A stretch of 64,000 bases of DNA, taken from positions 62,001 through 126,000 of the forward strand of contig JADYYS010000027.1 of NCBI GenBank assembly GCA_020853525.1. The letters are read 5' to 3'. The notes beneath the pieces are model-generated. The model made no database searches and was not told the DNA's origin. It worked only from the letters and a program-made list of their open reading frames with translations. The stretch comes from Ardenticatenales bacterium. Lineage in GTDB: Bacteria > Chloroflexota > Anaerolineae > Epilineales > Epilineaceae. A program made the translations under genes and the position numbers. Numbering within the stretch: the stretch's first letter is position 1; every line of letters starts with the position of its first letter. Below are positions 42,129-56,578 of the stretch, one piece after another.

Positions 42129-45029
42129 ATGTCGGACCGACGCCCGATCCGCTTGGCAAGTCGCCGCCCGCTCCTCGCCGCTGTCGTAGCCTGCACCCTT
42201 GCGGCGCTCGCGACCGCGCGCCCGACGCCGCCCGACGGCGTTCAGGCTGGGGCGCTACGCGTCGCGGCGCTCGGCACGTGGGTGGCGGACGCGGGTGCGC
42301 CGGCCTCGACCGGCAACATCGCGGTCGCGAACGCCGACCTGGCGTGGGCGATCGCGGGCGATCAGACGTACGTCTGGCAATCCGGCACGTGGTCCGTCGT
42401 TTCCAACCCGCACTGGACGGGGCAGCACCTCACGGACATCTACGTCCGCGACGCCGACCACGCATGGATCGCCGGTTGGCGCCGGATCAACGTGGACGGC
42501 AGCCCGTGCAACTGCGGCTTCCTCCTGCGCTGGCAGAACGGCGGCTGGGAGGCGGAGCAGGAGGTGATCCCGCTGTTGATCGTGGCCGTTTCCATGCCCG
42601 AGGACGGCTTCGGTCTCGCCATCGGCTACGAAGCGCAGGCCGGCGGGGCGCGCTCGTACAAGTGGGACGGGACGAGCTGGCAGCCGGTCGACTTCCCCGG
42701 CTACGGCTATGCGCTGTCCGCCTCGTCCGCCGCATCGGCGTGGGCGGTCGAGAGCCAGGGGACGCTATACCGCTTCCAAGGCGGCACGTGGTCGTTGTGG
42801 CCGGTGACCGGCGACCCGGTGCTCTCCACGCTTTCCGTCGTCGCGGATGACTTCGGCGTGGCGTTCGGCATCTTCGGCGAGATCCGGCACTGGAACGGCA
42901 CGACGTGGCAGACGGTCACGAGCCCGATCACCAGCGGTGTGTCCGACGTGGCCCTCGCGTCGCGCACCGAGGGCTGGACGGTCGGCGGTCCTGCCGTGAC
43001 GCTCCGCTGGGACGGCATCCAGTGGGCGGCCGTGAACGATCCCGTCGCGCATCAGCTGCACACGATCGCGATGGCACCGCCCGAAGCGGGCTGGGGGATC
43101 GGGAACGGCCTCGTGGCGCGCTACGTACCGCCGCCGCCCACGGCTACCGCCGGCCCGATGTCCACCGCCACGCCCACCCCGTCGCAGACGTACACCCCGT
43201 CGGCCACGTTCACCCCATCGACCACGCCTTCGCCGACGCTCACCCCGTCGCCCACGCTCACGCCCTCCATCACCCCGCCTCCCACCCCAACCCGCACGGC
43301 GACAGCGACGACCACCCCGACCCCGGTACCGACGACGACGCCGAGCCCCGGCCCGTCGCCGACGAGCACCCGGACGAGCACATCGACGTCGACGAGCACG
43401 CGGACGCGCACCCCCACGCGAACGTCGACCGCCACCCCATCGCCCTCGTCGACGCGGACCGCGACGCCGACGCATACGTGGACGCCGACACGCACACCGA
43501 CGGCGACGGCCACACCGACCTCGACCCCGACCGTCACGCGCACGCCGACCGCATCCAAGACGCCGACGGCCACGCGCACGACGACGCCGACACGAACGCC
43601 GACCACCACGCCGACCTTGTCGCCGACCCCGTCCCTGACGCCGACGCCGACACTGACGCTGACGCCGACGACCACGCGCACGTCCACGACCGTGCCGACC
43701 CAGACGATCACCCCCACGGCGCCGCCACCGTCGTCCACTGCCACCGCCACGACACCGCCGGCCGCATCGGCAACCACCGCGTTGGCGACGGGCACCGTGA
43801 TCCCGACGCCGGCAACGACCGCGTCCGCTTCGGCCGCGAGCCCGACGCCGAGCAGGACGCCGACCGCGTCGGCCGCGAGCGCGACGCCCACCAGGACGGC
43901 GACGGCATCGGCATCGGCCGCGAGCCCGACGCCCAGCAGGACCGCGACGGCATCGGCCTCGAGTCCGACGCCCACGAGGACGGCGACGGCATCGGCCGCG
44001 AGCGCGACGCCCAGCAGGACCGCGACAGCATCGGCCACCGGTCCAACGCCCACCCGCACCGCGACGGCCACGAGCCCGACGCCCACCCGGACCGCATCGG
44101 CTCCGGCCACGAGCACGGCACCGACGCCGACATCGATCGCCTCGGCCACCGGCCCGACGCCGAACACGAGCGCCACGCCGACGGCCACGAGTCCGACACC
44201 GACGAACGCGGTTCCGCCGACGTCGACCTCGACCCCGACCGCCGTCCTCACCCCGACCCCGATCGTGCCGTCGACGTCCTTCACGATCCGCGCTTCCAAC
44301 ATGGCGTTCGTCCCGAACGTCGTCGCGGTCCCGCCGAGCCAGCCGATCTCGATCGCGGTGCGCAGCGACTCCGGGACGCACGACCTCGTGCTCGAGCTCG
44401 GCGGCGGACAGGTGGTGTTCACACCCGTGATCTTCCAGGGCCAGTCATTTGCCCTCAAGTTCACGTCGCCGGCCACGCCAGGCGAGTACCCGTTCTACTG
44501 CTCGGTCGCCAACCACCGCGCCCTCGGGATGACCGGCCGCCTCATCGTCGTGCCGAACGAGTCGCCGACGCCGACCGGCAGTGGGACGCCGGGCGGATCA
44601 CCGTCCCCGGACGTCACGCCCGTCCCCTCGAGTTCGCCGACGGGCGGCAGCGGGCCGACGCCCACGGCATCGCGCACCGCCCCCACCGCCGCGGCGTCGC
44701 CGACGATCGCGCCCACCCGCTCGCCCACCGCCACGACGCGGCCCGAAGCGACACCGACGCAACGTCCGACGGCCACGCAGGGCACCCCGCCGACCCCCGG
44801 GCCGACCCCCACCCATACGCCGCTGCCGGATCCGGCCGCGAGCCCCACGGAGCCGCCGCCCTGGCCGACGATCACGAGCACGCCGACGCCGACGGATCCG
44901 CCGCCGTGGCCGACGTACACGCCGTCGCCGACCGGCGCGACGGCGCAGCCGACGGGCGATCCGCGCGGCGGAGTGGTGTATCTGCCGATCGTGCAGCGGC
45001 GGGTGATGTTTGGGTTGGACTGGCCGTGA
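42129..45029 (+). CDS. Mucin-like secreted protein with N-terminal propeller and blue-copper (cupredoxin) domain
   Basis: A 966-residue exported protein. A signal peptide ([16 protein letters not shown]) precedes a propeller of WD/BNR-type repeats (about 45-335, for example [20 protein letters not shown]). Then come about 380 residues of almost pure Thr/Pro/Ser/Ala repeats (TPTxTxT). Residues about 715-810 are a plastocyanin-like domain with type 1 copper ligands: His in SGTHDL, Cys and His in [13 protein letters not shown], and Met in GM. A second Thr/Pro region leads to [12 protein letters not shown]. Electron transfer or copper binding at the cell surface is likely. The Thr/Pro region suggests heavy O-glycosylation. 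The start lacks a strong ribosome-binding site. Confidence 0.85.
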
Positions 45030-45377: not shown

Positions 45378-45813
45378 TCAGAGATCACGGACGGGAGGGT
45401 ACCATCCCACGAGCGTCCATCGCCGCCGGGCTTCGACGATGTCGTCGTGATTCAGGTGGAGCGCACCGACGGTGGCGCGGCCGGTGGCGCTTGTGCCCAC
45501 CACATGCGTGAAGTCGTCGCTCCACCGAAAGTGGTCTCGCCAAGGGGTGCGATTGGGATGGAACAGGGGTACATCGGTGCCGGTGTCCGGATCTGTGGCG
45601 ACCGTGAGATCGCGCTTGAACTCGTTGCAGGAATGGCAGGCGACGCACAGATTCTCACGGGTCGTCTGGCCGCCAAGTGACATTCGGTTGGATGTGGTCG
45701 ATCACCGGTCGGGCACCCGTGATTGCCGTCATCGAATGACAATAGGCGCAGCGGCCGTCAGACTCCGCAACAAGCGTGCGCCGTAGAGGCGCCGGCACGC
45801 GCCGTCGGGTCAC
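45378..45813 (-). pseudogene. HNH endonuclease, frameshifted
   Basis: A GTG at 45813, overlapping the stop of the upstream gene (GTGA), opens VTRRRVPAPLRRTLVAESDGRCAYCHSMTAITGARPVIDHIQP. The continuation MSLGGQTTRENLCVACHSCNEFKRD ... RRRWTLVGWYPP lies in the next frame. Joined, they form a complete HNH nuclease with CAYC, DHI and CxxCNxxK motifs. The interval is 436 nt, so one extra base near 45692 breaks the frame. It may be a genuine loss of function or an assembly error. Family members cut DNA and often sit beside the short protein encoded upstream here. Confidence 0.8.
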
Positions 45814-46354: not shown

Positions 46355-49300
46355 TCATCGGTCCGCCGGCTTGGAGGCGTCGGGTCGGCAAGTTTCCACG
46401 TGCAAGTACTTCCGGCACTCTTCCTCCGTCAGCGCCCGCTTGACCCGCTCATGGGCGCGGGTGACGAGATCGTTTAGGCGGAGGGTGAAGATGTAGACGT
46501 TGCCGTACGGCATGACGGACCGGGCCGCCAGATGATGACCGTCCGGACTGTATTCGAGCCCATATAGAGCGCCGGCGGATTCGGCGACCGAAAGGACCTC
46601 CTCACCCGTCTTCGCATCCCAGACCTTCACCGTGCCCTCCCAACTGGCTGTTGCCAGTTGCGAACTGTCGGAGCTGAAGTCGATACCCGACACGGGGCGC
46701 ACATGACTGATGATCGAGAATCGCTCGCGGCCGCTGGTCGCATCCCAGACCTTCACCGTTCGATCTTCGTCGCTGGCTGTGGCAATCATGCTGCCGTCTG
46801 GAGAGTAGCTGACCCTTTGCACGTTGCCGGTGTGTCCGGACAGTGTCAACAGCATGTTACCCGCGGCGACATCCCAGACCCGTGCCGTTTCATCCTCACT
46901 TCCGGTGACCAATCGCGAACCGTCCGGGCTGAAGTCAACGTGGTTCACCAAGTCCTTGTGGCCAGACAACGTCAACAGCATCACGCCGGACTTGGCATTC
47001 CACACCCTGACGGTCTGGTCGCTGCTTGAAGTGGCGATCCGGGTGCCATCGGGGCTGAATCCGATGCCCTTGATGGCACCGGAATGGCCGACCAGTCCAC
47101 TTAGGAGCTGGCCGGATTCAGCTTGCCACAGCCTGACCGCGCCGTTCTTGCTACCGGTAGCGATGGTCCGACCATCGGCGCTGTACGCGACGCGCTGCAC
47201 ATCGGTGATCGCATCCGTAAGTGTGACCGCCGCCGTCCCAGTTGCGAGATCCCAGACTCTGACGCCGACCTCGAACTCGGCGGCAGCCATCGACAACCCG
47301 TCAGGACTGTAGGCGGCAGCGATAACGTACCCATACGGATCCGGACTATGGATTGTGCGCCAAGACTCAGCGCCCGTGATATTCCACACCCCAACCGTGC
47401 CGTCGCTGCTCCCGGTAATCGCCTGCCGTCGGTCGGACGTCATGGCAACGTCACCGACCTCACCACGGTGCCCCTCCAACGGAAACCCCCAGCTCTGCTC
47501 AACCAGAACGCCGGTTCCCCCGGAAACGTGGGCCGTTTTGTCCGAGCTGGCAGTCAGCAACAGTTTCCCATCCGAACTGAAGACAGCCTCAGCCAATTGA
47601 TCCTCATGGGCGTCAACCGTTTGTATCAGTTCACCGGTCGTACTGTTCCAGATCCGTGCATCGCCGCCCACGGTAGCGAGTCGCATGCCGTCCGGACTGA
47701 AGGCGACACAGAATACTGGCCAGTTGAATAATGGAGTGCTGCCGTACGGGAATATCGACATCACGCGAGCCCCCGTATTGGCATCCCACAGCAACGCCGT
47801 CTTGTCTCCGCTTCCCGTCGCCACGCGCGCACCGTCCGGGCTCCATGCCACGGAGTACACCACCCCGGTATGCCCCGTCAATGCGCGACGCACGTCCCCA
47901 GTATGTACATCCCATACGATGGCCGTCTTGTCATTGCTTGCCGATACCAATCGCAAGCCGTCTGGGCTGAACGCCACCTTCGTGACCGCATCCGTATGCC
48001 CAGTGAGCTGACGGACGCTCGTCCCCGTCACGCTATCCCACAACCGCACCACCCGATCCGGCCCACCGGATGCCAACACAGCCCCATCCGGGCTGAACGC
48101 CACCGTCGTCACCGTTGTGATCGCCTGCGTGATCGTCAGCACGGTCCTGCCCGTGGCGAGGTCCCACAGCTTGATGCCGTCCTTGCCGCACGTCGCCACA
48201 CGCAGCCCGTCCGGACTCACGGCAACGTCGTTGACACCCCCCTCGTGAGCCATCAGCGTCATCCGGCGGCGGGCGTGCTGCAACGCCAAGTGCAGCGCCC
48301 GCTCCGGTTCCGGCACCGGCACACCGCCGGCCAGCTGGCTCACCGAGATCGCCCGCAGCGCGAGCAACACGCTCAGTTCGGGGTCGACGTTGCGGTTCGC
48401 CAGCGACGCCCCGGCCAGCTCGCGCGCCAGGGCGCGGTCCCGCTCCTGATCCGCTCGCCCCGCACTCGCACGCGCCGCCTGACCGAGCGCGAGCGCCGCC
48501 ACCGCCAGCACGCCCGCCGCGATGAGCGCAAAGCTAAGTAGCAGCGCCCGCCGCCGCAGCTTCCTCGCCGACGCCGCCTCCCGCTCCAGCTGCGCCTGCC
48601 GCTCACGCACCTCGCGGTCGCGAAGTTCGACCCCCGCCTCGACGAAGCGCCGTTCCGCCTCCGTCAGGTCCGCCCGTCGCTCCGACAGCCACCCTTCGGC
48701 CTCCGCCAGCGGCGCCCCTCGCAGCAGCGTGCCGTCGTCATCGCCGACGGCCTCCCACTGCCGCAGCGCGATGCGGAGCCGTTCCTGCCAGGTTCGGAAG
48801 CGCCGATCCGCGTTGATCCACTCCCGCAGCCGCTCCCAGCTGCGGATCAGCGCCTCGTGCACCACCTCGGCCGTCTCGTGTCCCGCGTCGTCACGGCCCG
48901 TGGTCACCAGGCGTGCGTCCGCCAGCTTGCGCGCCAGCTCCCAGTCCGCGCCGAGCTCGCCTTTCGTCGCCAGCCGCCGCGTGTCTTCCGTCCCCTCGCC
49001 CGGCTGCACCAGCTGCACGAACACCCGCCTTGCCGGATCGCGGTCCGATTCAGCCAGGCCCGCGTACACCGCATCCGCATGCCGCGCCACCGCCCCCTCG
49101 ACACGCCCGATCGCCTCGTACGCCTCGTGCGTCAGCCAGCCCGCGTGCTGCTCGTCCCACAGCTTGGTCAGCGCGAACTCCAGGAGCGGCAGCGTGCCGG
49201 CCTTCTCGCCCACGTCGTCGACGATCCGCTCGACCAGTCCGCTCTCGAACGCGCGCCCTTGCGCCTCGGCGGGGAGGCGAATGGCCCGGGCCAGCTCCTC

Positions 49301-50572
49301 GCGGTTCATCGGGCCGAGGATCACATTGTGGTGCTGCATGGCGTCGGCGAACGGCCGATAGGCCAGGGCGTGGCCCATGAAATCGGCCCGTAACGTCAGA
49401 GCCAGCGTGACCGGTGGTCCGCTATTGCCGTTGAACGCCGCCGCGAAGAGCAGGTCCTGGAACGCGCGGTGCTCATCCTCGTCGGGGCAGAGCGTGTAGA
49501 GCTCCTCGAACTGGTCCGTGACGAGGAGGAGACGGCCGAGGTCGGGGTGCTTGTTGGCGATTCGGGCCAGCACGTCGGCGGGCGAGACGGTGCCGTCGCG
49601 GAGGACTCCGGCGAGCTTGCCGATCTCGGTCAGCCGGTCCGTCTCGGTGAGGTCGGCGCGTTCGTACAGCGGCAGCAGCGCACCGGCGAGGGCGTGGTAC
49701 GGGCGGGCGCCCGGTCGCATCTCCAGCACCCTCCAGGGCGGCGCGGCGCGACCATTGTTGCCGCCGGCGCGCAGCCGCGGCACCAGCCCGGCGTACACGA
49801 CGCTGGACTTCCCGCTCCCCGACGGCCCGATCACCCCGACCATCGGCGCGGTCGCGACGGCATCGACAAGCAGATCCGTGAACGCCTCGCGGCCGAAGAA
49901 GTACGGTGCGTCCGATTCGCGGAAGGCGTGAAGGCCGCGGTACGGGCACGCGGCGTCGACGTCGGCACCCTCCACCGCGACGCGGTCGCCGGCGGGCAGC
50001 TTCTCCGCCGTGTCGGGCGGCGTGTCGATGTCCGGGTAGCCGTCCGCCACCAGGCGGAACACGTGCTCGGTGTGCTCGAGGTCGCGCAGGCGGTGCACGC
50101 CGAGATCGACGAGCGTTCGCCCCGCCGGCAGCGCGTCCCGCACCAGCTGCTGCGTCGCCAGCGACACGAGCACCTGTCCGCCGTGGCCCGCCGCCATCAG
50201 GCGCGCGACGCGGTTCACGGGGCGGCCGAAGTAGTCGCCGTCATGCCAATCGACCAGCCCGGTGTGGATGCCCATGCGGACGCGCAGCGGCTCGAAGCCG
50301 GGGACGATCTCGTCCCAGAGCGCGGCGTGAAGCGCCCGCTGGGCGTCGACGGCGGCCGCGAGGGCGCTCGCCGCGTCGGCGAAGGTCGCGCAGTACGCGT
50401 CGCCGACCGTCTTGAACACGTGGCCGGCGTTCGATGCGATCGCACGGTCCAGGATGGCGTTGTGGCGCGCGAGCGCGGACGCCATCGCGGCGCGGTCCTG
50501 CTCCCAGCGCTGGGTGGAGCCGGCGATGTCGGTGAAGAGGAAGGTGACCGTGCCGGTGGGCGGGGTGGTCAT
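46355..50572 (-). CDS. Class III nucleotide cyclase - nSTAND ATPase - WD40 receptor, copy 1
   Basis: A 1405-residue multidomain protein. Residues 1-180 are a class III adenylate/guanylate cyclase with intact metal Asp15 (LFTDIAGS) and Asp58 (TVGDAYC), Lys54, and transition-state Asn120/Arg124 (VNRVARL). Residues 208-640 are a novel-STAND NTPase: CPYRGLHAFRESDAPYFFGRE, Walker A GPSGSGKSS (about 249-257), Walker B LLLVTDQFEE (about 348-357). A hydrophobic helix (about 674-698) crosses or touches the membrane. From about 770, 14 WD40 repeats form two seven-bladed propellers. The tail LTEEECRKYLHVETC closes the chain. Ligand binding by the propellers probably gates the ATPase and cyclase. The start at 50572 is set by homology, without a clear ribosome-binding site. 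Confidence 0.9.
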   Translation of the reverse strand: MTTPPTGTVTFLFTDIAGSTQRWEQDRAAMASALARHNAILDRAIASNAGHVFKTVGDAYCATFADAASALAAAVDAQRALHAALWDEIVPGFEPLRVRMGIHTGLVDWHDGDYFGRPVNRVARLMAAGHGGQVLVSLATQQLVRDALPAGRTLVDLGVHRLRDLEHTEHVFRLVADGYPDIDTPPDTAEKLPAGDRVAVEGADVDAACPYRGLHAFRESDAPYFFGREAFTDLLVDAVATAPMVGVIGPSGSGKSSVVYAGLVPRLRAGGNNGRAAPPWRVLEMRPGARPYHALAGALLPLYERADLTETDRLTEIGKLAGVLRDGTVSPADVLARIANKHPDLGRLLLVTDQFEELYTLCPDEDEHRAFQDLLFAAAFNGNSGPPVTLALTLRADFMGHALAYRPFADAMQHHNVILGPMNREELARAIRLPAEAQGRAFESGLVERIVDDVGEKAGTLPLLEFALTKLWDEQHAGWLTHEAYEAIGRVEGAVARHADAVYAGLAESDRDPARRVFVQLVQPGEGTEDTRRLATKGELGADWELARKLADARLVTTGRDDAGHETAEVVHEALIRSWERLREWINADRRFRTWQERLRIALRQWEAVGDDDGTLLRGAPLAEAEGWLSERRADLTEAERRFVEAGVELRDREVRERQAQLEREAASARKLRRRALLLSFALIAAGVLAVAALALGQAARASAGRADQERDRALARELAGASLANRNVDPELSVLLALRAISVSQLAGGVPVPEPERALHLALQHARRRMTLMAHEGGVNDVAVSPDGLRVATCGKDGIKLWDLATGRTVLTITQAITTVTTVAFSPDGAVLASGGPDRVVRLWDSVTGTSVRQLTGHTDAVTKVAFSPDGLRLVSASNDKTAIVWDVHTGDVRRALTGHTGVVYSVAWSPDGARVATGSGDKTALLWDANTGARVMSIFPYGSTPLFNWPVFCVAFSPDGMRLATVGGDARIWNSTTGELIQTVDAHEDQLAEAVFSSDGKLLLTASSDKTAHVSGGTGVLVEQSWGFPLEGHRGEVGDVAMTSDRRQAITGSSDGTVGVWNITGAESWRTIHSPDPYGYVIAAAYSPDGLSMAAAEFEVGVRVWDLATGTAAVTLTDAITDVQRVAYSADGRTIATGSKNGAVRLWQAESGQLLSGLVGHSGAIKGIGFSPDGTRIATSSSDQTVRVWNAKSGVMLLTLSGHKDLVNHVDFSPDGSRLVTGSEDETARVWDVAAGNMLLTLSGHTGNVQRVSYSPDGSMIATASDEDRTVKVWDATSGRERFSIISHVRPVSGIDFSSDSSQLATASWEGTVKVWDAKTGEEVLSVAESAGALYGLEYSPDGHHLAARSVMPYGNVYIFTLRLNDLVTRAHERVKRALTEEECRKYLHVETCRPDASKPADR

Positions 50573-50662
50573 GGGAACAAGCCACGCGGACAAGGGTCGC
50601 AGCATCGATCGGCAAATCTCAGCCAACGCCGGCCCCATCGACCGCTCACGGGCGTGCGGTGC

Positions 50663-50884
50663 TCATTCCTCAAATGCCGCCCGCGGAACCTGCGACTGGC
50701 GGACGATGGACTGAAGTGTTCCGATACGAAGCTCAGCATGATCCGGCACCGGCACGGTGATCGTCGTATCCGCGGTGCGGCGCTGCATGACAATATGACT
50801 GCCGCGACGGCGTACTTCGATGAATCCGTGCCGGCCCAAGACTTCACACACTTCACGGCCTCCGAGCCGCCGCAGCCTAGCCAC
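50663..50884 (-). CDS. hicA: HicA-family toxin
   Basis: A 73-residue protein of the HicA/YcfA mRNA-interferase family, starting ATG at 50884. The double-stranded-RNA-binding fold is recognisable in LRRLGGREVCEVLGRHGFIEVRRRGSHIVMQ, with the catalytic histidine in GSHIVM. VPVPDHAELRIGTLQSIVRQ is the typical second half (normally H-x-E-L-x-x-GTLxxILRQ). Its start overlaps the HicB stop by eight bases. It should cleave mRNA when free of HicB. The order, antitoxin first, is the reverse of the commonest arrangement. Confidence 0.9.
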   Translation of the reverse strand: MARLRRLGGREVCEVLGRHGFIEVRRRGSHIVMQRRTADTTITVPVPDHAELRIGTLQSIVRQSQVPRAAFEE

Positions 50885-51107
50885 CCATCATGACCTCGAC
50901 GCTGGTCACGAAGACCTCGCCGCCGAGCCTCTCCGCGATCTCGCTTGGATCCGCGAACTCGAAGAACAGCTCGAGCGCCTCTGTCAGGTTCTGGCGAGCT
51001 TCCTCGACTGTATCGCCCTGACTGGCCACGTCCAGTTCGGGGCAAAGGGCCACGTAGCCGCTGCCCTCGCGCTCGATAATCGCCGTCCATCGCCGTCGGC
51101 CGTTCAT
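50877..51107 (-). CDS. hicB: HicB-family antitoxin
   Basis: A 76-residue protein from an ATG at 51107 with GAGGAG upstream. WTAIIEREGSGYVALCPELDVASQGDTVEEARQNLTEALELFFE is the degenerate-RNase-H fold of HicB antitoxins, with the CPELDVxSQGxTxEEA signature. It lacks an obvious C-terminal DNA-binding domain, so autoregulation may need another factor. The pair lies exactly between the two receptor genes on the same strand. Confidence 0.92.
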   Translation of the reverse strand: MNGRRRWTAIIEREGSGYVALCPELDVASQGDTVEEARQNLTEALELFFEFADPSEIAERLGGEVFVTSVEVMMGG

Positions 51108-51212
51108 GCGTGATCTCCTCTGGTCGCCGAATGGTAGTCCGGTCGCCCTTTGTCACCAACCACCGCCCGAGTGGCGTGCGGCTCGCCTGCGCATGGCGGA
51201 TCGCCTGGCGAC

Positions 51213-54200
51213 TCATCGCGCGCCCGGTCGCGTCAGGTCCGCGGGACACGCTTCCACGTGCAGGTACTTCCGGCACTCCTCCTCCGTCAACGACCGCTTG
51301 ACGCGCTCGTGGGCGAGGGCGATGAGCTCGTCCAGGCGGAGGGTGTAGATATAGACGTTGCCGGCCAACGAGCCGACCGCCAAGTGAGCGCCGTCCGGAC
51401 TGAAGGCCGCGTCGAGCAGAAGGCCCGAAGCCTCCGCCACAGTCAGCAGTTCCTCCCCAGAGTTCGAATCCCAGACGCTGACCGTACCGTCCCAACTCGA
51501 GGTCGCCAGCTGAAGCCCATCAGGGCTGAAGGTGCCACCTTGAATGGGCCGCGTGTGGCTACGAATCGCGACCAACTCGCGGCCCGTGACCGCACTCCAT
51601 ACTCTCGCCGTTCGATCACTGTCGCTGGTCGTCAGGATCCGGCGTCCGTCCGGCGCGTACGCGATTCGGACCACGTTCCCGGCATGTCCGGTCAGAGTCA
51701 GCAGCTCTTTGCCGGATACCGCGTCCCAAGTCCTCGCCGAGCGGTCATCACTGGCTGTTGCGAGCTGACTGCCATCCGGGCTGTAGGCGACTTTGTTCAC
51801 CCAGGCGCCATGTCCCGTAAGTGTCAACAGCGAAGCTCCTGTGTTTACATTCCACACCATCGCCGTCCGGTCCTTGCTTGCGGTGGACAAGCGCAGGCCG
51901 TCAGCGCTGAATGCAAGTCCAGTGACCCAGTCGGAGTGCCCTGCAAAGACCCTTACAAGCGTGCCCGTATCCGTCTCCCAAAGTCTTGCTGTCTTGTCGT
52001 AGCCGGCCGTCGCCACGCGGTCCGAGTCAGGACTGAACGCCACATCCACGACATCGCTCACATGGCCCGTCAGCGAGATCGCCGCGGTCGTCGAGAGGTT
52101 CTCGAGGCTCCAGATCCGCGCCACACCGTCGCGACTGGCCGCAGCCACGGATCGCCCGTCCGGGCTGAACGCTACCGCCGGCGACGAAGCGGTGCCGCGC
52201 AGCGTGCGCCACGCCTGGGAGCGCATGAGATCCCAGACACCGATTGTGCCGTCGGCGCTGGATGTAACGGCCTGCTGACCATCGGGCGTGATTGCCACGT
52301 CCCCAACGGTGCCTGAGTGGCCCCCCAATCGGAAGGACAAAGGTTCAACGCTGGACCCGTACCCTCGAACCTCCCAGACACCTGCCGTCTTGTCCGCGCT
52401 GGCCGACAGGAGTCTTGTACCGTCCGGACTGAACACAATCTCGGAGACAACGTCCCGGTGGCCCTGCAGAACTTGTCGGAGGTCTCCGGTCTCGGCATCC
52501 CAGATCCGTAGGCTACTGCCTCCCGCGGCCAGCCAGGTGCCATCCGGGCTAAATGCAACGGAAGAGCTGGTTGCCCATTCGCTCGGTGTCAGTAGCCTGA
52601 GCAGTACGATCCCGGACGTGGCATCCCACAATTGTACGGAGAAGTCCTTACTTGCCGTCGCCAATCGCGCACCATCTGGGCTCCAGTCCACACTGTTCAC
52701 AACAGCACGATGGCCCTTCAGGCTCAGGAGCCTACCGCCAGTCCGGGCATCCCACACCAGGACCGATTTGTCTCTGCTAGCCGATGCCAAGCGCGAGCCA
52801 TCTGGGCTGAACGCCACCTGCATCACAGCGTCCGTGTGACCCTCAAGCTGGCGGACAGACTCCCCCGTCGCGCTGCGCCAGAGCCGAACCACCCGATCCG
52901 GCCCACCGGATGCCAACACGGCCCCATCCGGGCTGAACGCCACCGTCGTTACCGTCGTGATCGCTTGCGTGATCGTCAGCACTGTCTGCCCCGTGGCGAG
53001 GTCCCACAGCTTGATGCCGTCCTTGCCGCACGTCGCCAAACGCCGCCCGTCCGGACTCACCGCAACGTCATTGACGCCCCCCTCATGGGCCATCAGCGTC
53101 TGCCGGCGGCGCGTGTGCTGCAACGCTAGGTGGAGCGCCCGCTCCGGTCCCGGCACCGGAACACCGCCCGCCAGTTGGCTCACCGAAATCGCCCGCAGCG
53201 CCAGGAGCACGCTCAGTTCAGGGTCAGTTGTCCGGTTGGCCACCGACGCCCCGGCCAGCTCGCGCGCCAAGGCTCGGTCGCGCTCCTGGTCGGCCCGCCC
53301 CGCATTCGTGCGTGCCGCCTGACCAAGCGCAAGCGCCGCCACGGCCAGCGCTCCGGCGGCAACGAGCGCGACGCTGAGGAACACGCGCTGCCGGCGCAAC
53401 CTCGTCGCCGCGTCCGCTTCCCGTTCCAGCTGCGCGTGCCGCTCACGCACCTCGCGGTCGCGCAGCTCGACCCCCGCCTCGATGAAGCGCCGTTCCGCAT
53501 CCGTCAGGTCCGCCCGTCGCTCCGCAAACCACCCTTCGGCCTCCGCCAGCGGCGCCCCACGCAGCAGCGCACCCTCGTCGTCCCCGACGGACTCCCACTG
53601 CCGCAGCGCGATGCGGAGCCGTTCCTGCCAGGTTCGGAAACGCCGATCGGCGTTGATCCACTCGCGCAGTCGCTCCCAGCTGCGGATCAACGCCTCGTGC
53701 ACCACCTCCGCCGTCTCGTGCCCCGCGTCGTCACGGCCCGTGGTCACCAGGCGTGCGTCCGCCAGCTGCTGAACCAGCCCCCAGTCCTTGTCCAACTCCT
53801 CGCGCACAGCCAGCCGCCGGGTGTCTTCCGTCCCCTCGCCAGGCTGGACGAGCTGGACGAACACCCGCCTTGCCGGTTCGCAGTCCGATTCAGCCAGACC
53901 CGCGTACACCGCATCCGCATGCCGCGCCACCGCCCCCTCGACGCGCCCGATCGCCTCGTACGCCTCGTGCGTCAGCCAGCCGGCATGCTGCTCGTCCCAC
54001 AGCTTGGTCAGCGCGAACTCCAGGAGCGGCAGCGTCCCGGCCTTCTCGCCCACGTCGTCGACGATCCGCTCGACCAGTCCGCTCTCGAACGCGCGCCCTT
54101 GCGCCTCGGCCGGCATCCGGATCGCTCTGGCCAGTTCGTCCCGGTTCATCGGGCCGAGCTTCACGTCGTGCTTCTGAATCGCATCCGCGAACGGGCGGTA

Positions 54201-55454
54201 GGCCAGCGCGTGGCCCATGAAGTCGGCGCGCAGCGTGAGGGCCAGCGTCAGCGGCGGGCCGGTGCGCTGCTCGAAGGCCGCAGCGAACAAGAGGTCCTGG
54301 AACGATCGATGCTCCGACTCATCGGCGCACAGCGTGTAGAGCTCCTCGAACTGGTCGGCCACGAGCAGCAGACGACCCACGTCCGGGCGCCGGTCGCCGA
54401 TCCGCGCCAGCACGTCGTGCGGAGCGATCGAGCCCGCGCGCAGGTGCTCGGCCAGCTTGTTCAGCTCCGCCAGCCGGTCGATCTCGGAGGTGCCGTCGTC
54501 GACGAGCAGCGGCAGCCACGCGCCGGCCAGGGAGTGGAAGGGGCGGCTGCCGGGGCGGAGCTCGAGGACGGTCCACGGCGTCGGCGTCGACGACCCGTTG
54601 TCTGTCCGTGTGCGCAGCCGCGGCACCAGCCCGGCGAACACCACGCTGGACTTCCCGCTCCCCGACGGCCCGATCACCCCGACCATCGGAGCCGTCGCGA
54701 CGGCATCGACAAGCAGATCCGTGAACGCCTCGCGGCCGAAGAAGAACGGGGCGTCGGCTTCGCGGAAGGCGTGGAGGCCGCGGTACGGGCACGCGGCGGG
54801 GAGGGATGCGACGTCGACGTGGGCGTGCGCGCTTGCGGTGGCGCCGAGGGCCTCGGCGGTGTCGGGAGGCGTTGTGATGTCCGGCATCCCCGGCGCGACG
54901 AGTCGGAACAGGTGCTCCGTGTGGCGCAGGCCCTTCAGGCGGTGGACGCCGAGGTCGACGAGCCGGGCGCCGTCGGGCAGGTTGTCGCGGACGAGCTGCT
55001 GGGTGGCGAGCGACAGGAGAACCTGGCCGCCGTGGCCGGCGGACATCAGGCGCGCCGCGCGGTTCAGGGGTGGGCCGACGTAGTCGTCGTCGCCGGCGCG
55101 GTATTCGGCGGCGCCGGTGTGCAGGCCCATGCGCACGCGCACGAACGGGAAGTCCGGGCCGCACGCCGACCAGTCCTCGGCGGCGAGCGCCCGCTGCGCG
55201 GCGACGGCGGCAGTCACGGCATCGTCGGGGGCTGCGAAGGCAGCGCAGTAGGCGTCGCCGACGGTCTTGAACACGTGGCCGTGGTGGGCGTGGATCGCAC
55301 CGCCGACGATCGCATTGTGGCGGTCGAGGGCACGCTCCATCGCGGCGCGGTGGTGCTCCCAGCGCGTGGTGGAGCCTTCGATGTCCGTGAAGAGGAACGT
55401 CACGGTGCCGGTGGGCGGGGCGTAGGGCGATGGCCGCGGGAGCGGTGTGGGCAT
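51213..55454 (-). CDS. Class III nucleotide cyclase - nSTAND ATPase - WD40 receptor, copy 2
   Basis: A 1413-residue paralogue of copy 1 with the same order: cyclase (Asp24, Lys63, Asp67, Asn131/Arg135 all present), nSTAND ATPase, one helix, 14 WD40 blades, and tail LTEEECRKYLHVEACP. From CPYRGLHAF through the ATPase and helix to the second WD40 blade it is nearly identical to copy 1 (for example GTLPLLEFALTKLWDEQHAG in both). The cyclase and blades 3-14 differ clearly. The start at 55454 has no ribosome-binding site but lies eight bases from a good -10 box, suggesting a leaderless transcript. It is probably a membrane-associated receptor producing a cyclic nucleotide on ligand binding. Confidence 0.9.
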   Translation of the reverse strand: MPTPLPRPSPYAPPTGTVTFLFTDIEGSTTRWEHHRAAMERALDRHNAIVGGAIHAHHGHVFKTVGDAYCAAFAAPDDAVTAAVAAQRALAAEDWSACGPDFPFVRVRMGLHTGAAEYRAGDDDYVGPPLNRAARLMSAGHGGQVLLSLATQQLVRDNLPDGARLVDLGVHRLKGLRHTEHLFRLVAPGMPDITTPPDTAEALGATASAHAHVDVASLPAACPYRGLHAFREADAPFFFGREAFTDLLVDAVATAPMVGVIGPSGSGKSSVVFAGLVPRLRTRTDNGSSTPTPWTVLELRPGSRPFHSLAGAWLPLLVDDGTSEIDRLAELNKLAEHLRAGSIAPHDVLARIGDRRPDVGRLLLVADQFEELYTLCADESEHRSFQDLLFAAAFEQRTGPPLTLALTLRADFMGHALAYRPFADAIQKHDVKLGPMNRDELARAIRMPAEAQGRAFESGLVERIVDDVGEKAGTLPLLEFALTKLWDEQHAGWLTHEAYEAIGRVEGAVARHADAVYAGLAESDCEPARRVFVQLVQPGEGTEDTRRLAVREELDKDWGLVQQLADARLVTTGRDDAGHETAEVVHEALIRSWERLREWINADRRFRTWQERLRIALRQWESVGDDEGALLRGAPLAEAEGWFAERRADLTDAERRFIEAGVELRDREVRERHAQLEREADAATRLRRQRVFLSVALVAAGALAVAALALGQAARTNAGRADQERDRALARELAGASVANRTTDPELSVLLALRAISVSQLAGGVPVPGPERALHLALQHTRRRQTLMAHEGGVNDVAVSPDGRRLATCGKDGIKLWDLATGQTVLTITQAITTVTTVAFSPDGAVLASGGPDRVVRLWRSATGESVRQLEGHTDAVMQVAFSPDGSRLASASRDKSVLVWDARTGGRLLSLKGHRAVVNSVDWSPDGARLATASKDFSVQLWDATSGIVLLRLLTPSEWATSSSVAFSPDGTWLAAGGSSLRIWDAETGDLRQVLQGHRDVVSEIVFSPDGTRLLSASADKTAGVWEVRGYGSSVEPLSFRLGGHSGTVGDVAITPDGQQAVTSSADGTIGVWDLMRSQAWRTLRGTASSPAVAFSPDGRSVAAASRDGVARIWSLENLSTTAAISLTGHVSDVVDVAFSPDSDRVATAGYDKTARLWETDTGTLVRVFAGHSDWVTGLAFSADGLRLSTASKDRTAMVWNVNTGASLLTLTGHGAWVNKVAYSPDGSQLATASDDRSARTWDAVSGKELLTLTGHAGNVVRIAYAPDGRRILTTSDSDRTARVWSAVTGRELVAIRSHTRPIQGGTFSPDGLQLATSSWDGTVSVWDSNSGEELLTVAEASGLLLDAAFSPDGAHLAVGSLAGNVYIYTLRLDELIALAHERVKRSLTEEECRKYLHVEACPADLTRPGAR

Positions 55455-55642: not shown

Positions 55643-55897
55643 ATGCGGGTCGCAAACCTCCGGAGCCAGCCCGTGGACGAGCTACTGCCCTGGATGACTG
55701 CCACGTCCCGCGTCATCGCCCGCGGGCGTCGGATCCGCGACGCGCAGCGGCTGGTAGCCACGTACGGGGGGCAGGTGAGCCGGTGGGTCAAGAAGAGCAG
55801 CCCGCAGTTCGATGAGAATGGGCGCACTTTCGAGTTCCATTGGTATGAGCATCCTGGCATCGGACGCGTGGAGATCAAGCGAAAAGAGGTCACGTAG
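55643..55897 (+). CDS. Orphan C-terminal toxin domain of a polymorphic (Rhs-type) toxin
   Basis: An 84-residue protein; the start is the ATG at 55643 or a GTG at 55637. RDAQRLVATYGGQVSRWVKKSS, then GRTFEFHWYEHPGIGRVEIKRKEV, resembles the small nuclease-like domain found at the C-termini of Rhs and other polymorphic toxins, where WVKKSS and HWYEN are typical. No Rhs core, secretion domain or signal peptide is attached, so it is either a displaced toxin tip or a stand-alone toxin. The next gene starts two bases after the stop and looks like its immunity partner. The assignment rests on motif memory, not a search. Confidence 0.6.
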   Translation: MRVANLRSQPVDELLPWMTATSRVIARGRRIRDAQRLVATYGGQVSRWVKKSSPQFDENGRTFEFHWYEHPGIGRVEIKRKEVT

Positions 55898-55899
55898 CC

Positions 55900-56232
55900 A
55901 TGGTCGTCCAATTTGTCGGTACCAGCGCCGAACACGCCGACTTGACGCCGGGTCAGGCATACGTCGTCATCGGCATCGAGGCCGACGACTACCGCTTGCT
56001 GAATGACGAGGGTCGCCCGTACCTGTATCCCGCCGCCGCATTCACCGTCGCAGATCCACGCGAGCCGACCGATTGGATTTCAGAGTTGGGAGACGACGGC
56101 GAGCGCTACGCCTACCCCGCGCCGCTGAATGCACCCGGCTTCTTCGAGGACTACTTCGATACCCAGGCGGCAGCCGTCACAACGTTCTGGCGCACCATCA
56201 ACCAGCGGCTTGCGAGCGCCACGGCGGCTTGA
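55900..56232 (+). CDS. Probable immunity protein for the adjacent toxin domain
   Basis: A 110-residue acidic soluble protein beginning MVVQFVGTSAEHADLTPGQAY, with YRLLNDEGRPYLYP, WISELGDDGERYAYPAP and GFFEDYFDTQAAAVTTFW. The acidity, size and immediate downstream position fit an immunity protein that masks the basic toxin domain. No named family is claimed. It sits between receptor copy 2 and the deleted third copy. Confidence 0.55.
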   Translation: MVVQFVGTSAEHADLTPGQAYVVIGIEADDYRLLNDEGRPYLYPAAAFTVADPREPTDWISELGDDGERYAYPAPLNAPGFFEDYFDTQAAAVTTFWRTINQRLASATAA

Positions 56233-56240
56233 CGGGTGGG

Positions 56241-56578
56241 CTATGGCGCGACTTCCGCCGGGCGAGGCATGTCGGCCGGACATGTCTCAAGGTGGAGGAA
56301 CTGGCGGCAACGATCTCGTCCCAGAGCGCGGCGTGAAGCGCCCGCGGGGCGTCGACGGCGGCCGCGAGGGCGCTCGCCGCATCGGCGAATGCCGCGCAGT
56401 ACGCGTCGCCGACCGTCTTGAACACGTGGCCGGCGTTCGATGCAATCGCACGGTCCAGGATGGCGTTGTGGCGCGCGAGCGCGGACGCCATCGCGGCGCG
56501 GCCGGACTCCCAGCGCTGGGTGGAGCCGGCGATGTCGGTGAAGAGGAAGGTGACGGTGCCGGTGGGCGGAGAGGGCAT
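56241..56578 (-). pseudogene. Internally deleted third cyclase-nSTAND-WD40 gene
   Basis: From an ATG at 56578 the frame reads MPSPPTGTVTFLFTDIAGST and continues like copy 1 through VFKTVGDAYC to HAALWDEIV. There the sequence jumps, out of frame, to CRQFLHLETCPADMPRP and a TAG at 56241, the last residues of the same family. More than 1200 codons are missing. The original frame runs on to 56198 as unrelated residues. The promoter and start are intact, so a truncated cyclase half-domain might still be made. Confidence 0.85.

Follow-up and report, generated by a model that had tools for sequence, protein, structure and literature searches.

Patchy identity between two cyclase-STAND-WD40 genes of an Ardenticatenales bacterium and its probable origin by gene conversion

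Two neighbouring genes of an Ardenticatenales bacterium (Chloroflexota; Anaerolineae) encode large proteins of the same domain order, in which stretches of close identity alternate with stretches that are clearly different. This raises the question of whether the pattern records recombination between the two copies or constraint on a common core, and whether it represents diversification of a sensor as in NLR-type receptors. To address this question, we describe here the two genes, copies A and B, in a window of 64,000 nucleotides (GenBank assembly GCA_020853525.1, contig JADYYS010000027.1, positions 62,001 to 126,000 of the forward strand). Coordinates are those of the window unless another locus is named.

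Architecture of copies A and B and the mosaic of their identity

The extents given to both genes in the first-pass annotation, made from the sequence alone, are borne out by the open reading frames (ORFs; Table 1). The ORF of A is open upstream to 50638 and that of B from TTG 55583. The likely start of A is ATG 50572, because homology begins there, and ATG 55454 is the likely start of B in preference to the TTG. Both heads contain a class III cyclase domain (PF00211), followed by an nSTAND1 ATPase (PF20703, E about 1e-121, profile 1-378/379) with the Walker motifs GPSGSGKS and LLLV.DQFEEL, a hydrophobic helix (amino acids [aa] 700-718 of A, mean hydropathy 2.6), and 14 blade anchors, as for a WD40 double propeller (14 x about 42 residues). 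A and B are the sole full nSTAND1 proteins in the 4.27-Mb genome; other full-nSTAND1 donors were sought there, and none was found.

The copies were compared by codon alignment and divided into segments by Viterbi on nucleotide (nt) identity, in the aa numbering of A. Even divergence along the length would argue against a mosaic; identity is strongly patchy, from 54 to 96% nt by segment. In addition to the tracts (t1 to t4) and segments (g1 and g2) of Table 1, the head (aa 22-212) has 75% nt identity, aa 557-571 has 54% (40% aa), aa 864-911 has 74%, aa 911-1376 has 57%, and the tail has 78%. Identity is clustered (shuffling test, p=2e-4), and exact matches are short, up to 74 nt. The core had been described as almost residue-identical from CPYRGLHAF through the second blade. 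This holds from CPYRGLHAF to the P-loop, for the C-terminal nSTAND1 part and for blades 1 and 2 (92% each), but not for g1 (69% aa), aa 557-571, or the helix and linker. The Walker B third ranks with the most divergent stretches of the core; contrary to what that description implied, the ATPase was not homogenised as a whole. The heads are indeed clearly different (67% aa), as are blades 3-14 (35-61% pairwise).

Table 1. Positions of copies A and B, of the segments of their alignment, and of a remnant of a third copy.
Feature	Position	Strand	Basis, or nt identity to B
Copy A: class III cyclase, nSTAND1, hydrophobic helix, 14 WD40 blades	46355..50572	-	ORF, Pfam, blade count
Copy B: architecture as copy A	51213..55454	-	ORF, Pfam
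A cyclase head	49963..50572	-	PF00211, alignment to solved cyclases, invariant columns
Tract t1 in A (aa 228-290), CPYRGLHAF to past Walker A	49769..49957	-	95% to B 54612-54800 (B positions calculated by offset)
Segment g1 in A (aa 291-456), Walker B and sensor region	49271..49768	-	72% to B, not homogenised
Tract t2 in A (aa 457-557)	48968..49270	-	96% to B 53808-54110
Tract t3 in A (aa 571-685)	48584..48928	-	94% to B 53424-53768
Segment g2 in A (aa 685-803), helix (48482-48544) and linker	48230..48586	-	81% to B, intermediate
Tract t4 in A (aa 804-864), blades 1-2	48047..48229	-	94% to B 52887-53069
A blades 3-14, diverged from B, collinear	46460..48007	-	GC content at third codon positions (GC3) about 0.71
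B blades 3-14	51315..52847	-	Blade alignment
Fragment C (third-copy remnant), upstream of B	56241..56578	-	Sequence comparison

Synonymous sites, breakpoints and WD40 blades

A patchwork can be separated from constraint by three comparisons: of synonymous codon identity with its random expectation, with a homologue from outside, and with a tandem pair as control. The statistic was codon identity beyond the random (codon-usage) expectation, taken over columns in which both proteins have the same residue. It was used in place of synonymous divergence (dS) by NG86, which alone overstates the contrast between blades and core because GC3, about 0.9 in the core, is only about 0.7 from blade 3 on. 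Homologue D (G002:C248), from another genus of the family, was the sole full-length homologue of the same family for comparison, and F is a partial paralogue from G002; closer relatives useful for comparison were not found among the named genomes. A hydrophobic helix, with hydropathy averaging >2.3 over 19 residues, is common to A, B, D and E.

Between A and B, codon identity beyond chance is 0.82 in t1, 0.77 in t2, 0.71 in t3 and 0.71 in t4. The corresponding values are 0.06 for g1, 0.15 for the blades, 0.29 for the head and 0.36 for aa 686-803. Between A and D, it is near 0 in t1, t3, t4, g1 and the blades, and B likewise has next to no synonymous signal in common with D in t1, t3 and t4; in t2, the synonymous resemblance of D to A or B is modest (0.26-0.30; 0.30 for A-D). 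The nt identities in the four tracts are 0.93-0.96 for A-B versus 0.52-0.79 to D, and those in g1 are equal across pairs (A-B, 0.71; A-D, 0.72; B-D, 0.70). The control was a kinase-nSTAND1-WD40 tandem pair from another genome (G087), most other replicate pairs being too diverged for a conversion test. Its proteins also have a conserved core and divergent WD40 blades, and its synonymous identity is roughly flat along the length (0.25-0.59), which is the appearance of constraint alone. The mosaic of A and B at synonymous sites is real and well supported: bounded tracts that are alike at these sites lie among older neighbours, as is characteristic of gene conversion.

Maximum chi-square (max-chi2) analysis of A, B and D placed one significant breakpoint within aa 291-304 of A and another at aa 457, with p<=8e-4 for synonymous sites and 1e-4 for all sites; a further change lies near aa 245. 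The breakpoints had been expected near domain edges; however, the first two lie inside the ATPase and another lies inside blade 2, leaving only aa 228 near an edge. Trees of the tracts join A and B (support, 100/99), while that of g1 (aa 291-456) joins B and D (95/88); the head tree groups A, B and D (93/95) and A with B at just 47/50.

The blades of A and B pair 1:1 in order. Blade-blade identity inside one protein has a median of 33-37%, no tandem repeats were detected in the blade DNA, and blade shuffling or recent amplification was sought in A and B and not found. In the blade windows, nonsynonymous divergence (dN) is lower than dS, though dS is near saturation there, which could hide episodic selection. 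Differences between A and B fall on variable loop columns generally and not in one cluster, and in a search for a donor among 396 genomes of the class, no blade array closer to that of A than the array of B was found. The blade difference is old divergence, with no visible diversifying selection. A model of the blades from AlphaFold2 (AF2) has moderate confidence (pLDDT 74) and a strand pattern that fits about 14 x 4 strands; its top match in the Protein Data Bank (PDB) is 2ymu, a propeller structure described as highly repetitive, and Apaf-1 is also among the best. The GC3 drop at blade 3 occurs in both A and B, next to neighbouring genes of 0.90-0.92, and is milder in D (0.88 to 0.83). The low GC3 of the blade array could reflect foreign origin or relaxed codon selection.

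Explanations of the mosaic

We consider it probable that short-tract homologous recombination, or gene conversion, between old paralogues produced the mosaic. Gene conversion had been proposed in the first-pass annotation and is well supported by the synonymous signal, breakpoints and local tree conflict. A and B would descend from a single receptor-cyclase gene whose WD40 array had 14 blades and would have split about as long ago as this genus split from another of its family. Conversion tracts of about 180-350 nt, from more than one event and of different age, would then have overwritten four patches, around the P-loop (t1), in the C-terminal ATPase (t2 and t3) and in blades 1-2 (t4), while the head, g1 and blades 3-14 retained separate histories. 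We infer the direction of transfer between A and B. Some points weigh against this reading. F is rather close in t1 (85-86% nt), so t1 may have a wider history; with D as the only full-length homologue of the same family, and with segments this short, the tree conflict is not individually significant by the approximately unbiased (AU) test, which does not reject A+B in g1 (p 0.49); and the AF2 model of the cyclase-ATPase part is unusable (pLDDT 38). It is distinctly unlikely that conversion was filtered by function under an insulation rule, with each copy keeping a private head, Walker B/sensor segment and blades 3-14 (the low-GC3 blade array, shared by both, possibly coming from another lineage) and sharing the handling parts without cross-activation.

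The main rival, which we regard as unlikely, reverses the polarity: A and B would be recent duplicates, one of which would later have received its head, g1 and blades by recombination with a diverged relative, for example lost copy C or incoming DNA. It likewise predicts a mosaic, remnants of further copies are present in the genome (the head of C is 95% identical to A, versus about 75% between the A and B heads), and the g1 tree joins B with D. It requires, however, several replacements (head, g1, aa 557-571, g2 and blades) with unequal levels of divergence, no full nSTAND1 besides A and B is left in the genome, and the flanks beyond the ORFs are dissimilar, unlike those of a recent tandem duplication. 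The best match of the A blades is moreover B, in collinear order, with no nearer array in the class genomes. Selective constraint without recombination, in which a conserved ATPase core is accompanied by a drifting sensor, would account for the protein pattern, since any nSTAND1-WD40 pair has it, the G087 pair included. It was rejected on synonymous sites and is extremely improbable: synonymous identity is strongly patchy in A and B and roughly flat in the control, A and D are nearly without synonymous signal in t1, t3 and t4, and the divergent part is the catalytic Walker B segment.

The first-pass annotation had also likened the blades to the diversifying sensors of NLR-type families. Such an arms race, with a switch kept uniform by conversion and sensor blades diversified by selection against pathogens, would fit the STAND-WD40 domain order found in Apaf-1, WRAP and HNWD, the copy turnover indicated by the C remnant, and a weak match of the B head to a Pycsar cyclase model (E 9e-5). 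The likeness was not sustained, and we judge this explanation quite improbable: the blades are collinear and old, with dN below dS, no amplification or shuffling, and differences spread over variable loop positions; A has no PADLOC match; the surrounding genes encode peptidases, a cupredoxin and a HicA-like pair; and the HNWD pattern is the opposite (below). An assembly chimera or strain mixture is very improbable. The assembly is a draft of 76 contigs and the copies share their short exact matches; however, the tracts are 4-6% diverged and therefore not collapsed repeats, both ORFs are open throughout 4.2 kb, and the patches alternate several times.

Neighbourhood, relatives and proposed function

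Similarity between A and B ends at the ORF edges, and the flanks are without similarity. In fragment C, the first 269 nt match the A head at the identity given above and are followed by an internal deletion of about 3.9 kb and a frame change into a remnant of the C-terminal tail (56241-56309). Elsewhere in the genome, a truncated cyclase head without ATPase or WD40 (L009 1513-1706; G000:C37:10282-10475) has 79% nt identity to the A head. Together with the similarity ending at the ORF edges, these remnants show a family in which copies were repeatedly lost and exchanged. In another genus, the nSTAND1 domain of a homologue (L083 3702-6176; G002:C306) is apparently internally deleted, with LAGALL joined to RGVPPAEAEQW and Walker B gone; an N gap lies nearby on the contig, so this deletion may be an assembly effect. 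A HicA toxin gene (PF07927, E 1e-15) lies between A and B, at 50663-51107 (-) including an overlapping upstream HicB-like ORF with a weak UPF0150-like match below the cutoff. Two small adjacent ORFs between copy B and fragment C (55643-55897 and 55900-56232, +) have no Pfam match. A small ORF at 45378-45683 (-), with weak PADLOC matches to PtuB/PtuA (HNH-like) and no Pfam match at threshold, probably encodes a short HNH endonuclease, and an ORF at 42129-45029 (+) encodes a very long, low-complexity Pro/Thr/Ser-rich linker with a cupredoxin-like domain at its C terminus.

Among named relatives, the one closest in layout is WRAP (Npun_R6612) of Nostoc punctiforme, which likewise has a STAND ATPase followed by WD40 repeats as two seven-bladed propellers (PMC9218822). 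WRAP blades are near identical, indicating recent amplification, its operon partner carries a TIR domain, and disrupted relatives are also known (PMC9218822). In contrast, the blades of A and B are 33-37% alike, the head is a cyclase, and there is no TIR-STAND partner among the neighbours. The closest precedent in eukaryotes, the fungal HNWD/NWD allorecognition genes het-d and het-e (PMC1805685), share with A and B the order of effector, NTPase switch and WD40 and the recombination of paralogues. In these genes it is the WD repeats that are homogenised, with positive selection at 4 codons, and the NACHT domain is more divergent (PMC1805685); A and B are the reverse, with homogenised ATPase patches and old, divergent blades, and near-identical exchanged WD repeats of the HNWD type were not found in them. 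Conversion between bacterial paralogues is established, though uncommon (PMC6053082). As in the recurrent cases described there, synonymous sites of A and B are more similar than expected; those cases are long-lasting and concern key metabolic genes, whereas the pattern in A and B is patchy within a multidomain receptor. The nSTAND1-WD40 core was matched in 122 of the 396 class genomes (E<=1e-60), where proteins with SARP/BTAD-like or Ser/Thr kinase heads use the same chassis. Loci L011-L016 and L088-L115 have Ser/Thr kinase, SARP/BTAD-like and cyclase heads, joined at a conserved [CN]PY[RK]GL..F that forms a module junction. Among loci with readable heads, assigned by motif, the cyclase head was found only in this family.

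Class III cyclases use two metal-binding Asp residues, a Lys/Asp substrate pair, an Asn and an Arg. Alignment to solved cyclases located the canonical residues at D15, K54, D58, D113, N120 and R124 of A (from ATG 50572); all are present in B, in columns invariant between the copies. A sequence search for a solved nSTAND1 relative returned none. The combination of a cyclase with an adjacent transmembrane or TIR cyclic-nucleotide effector that defines Pycsar was not found, as no effector was present among the neighbours tested, and only the B head matches PycC, weakly. Six cyclic nucleotide monophosphate (cNMP)-binding domains were found in the genome.

From their domain content, catalytic residues and helix, A and B are likely membrane-anchored receptor cyclases. 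The N-terminal cyclase and STAND ATPase would be cytoplasmic, the single helix would span the membrane, and the double seven-bladed propeller would serve as a ligand sensor outside the cell. Ligand binding may release the STAND switch, with ATP-driven oligomerisation then pairing the cyclase heads, and the paired heads would produce a cyclic nucleotide, probably cAMP, as a signal for CRP-type proteins. With a sensor and a head of its own, each copy would take its own input, and the two outputs would be similar. In this class, a conserved core with divergent WD40 repeats is common at the protein level and is not evidence for immune-type diversification. A and B represent a clear, checkable case in which gene conversion acts below the level of whole domains between two large STAND receptors of a bacterium.

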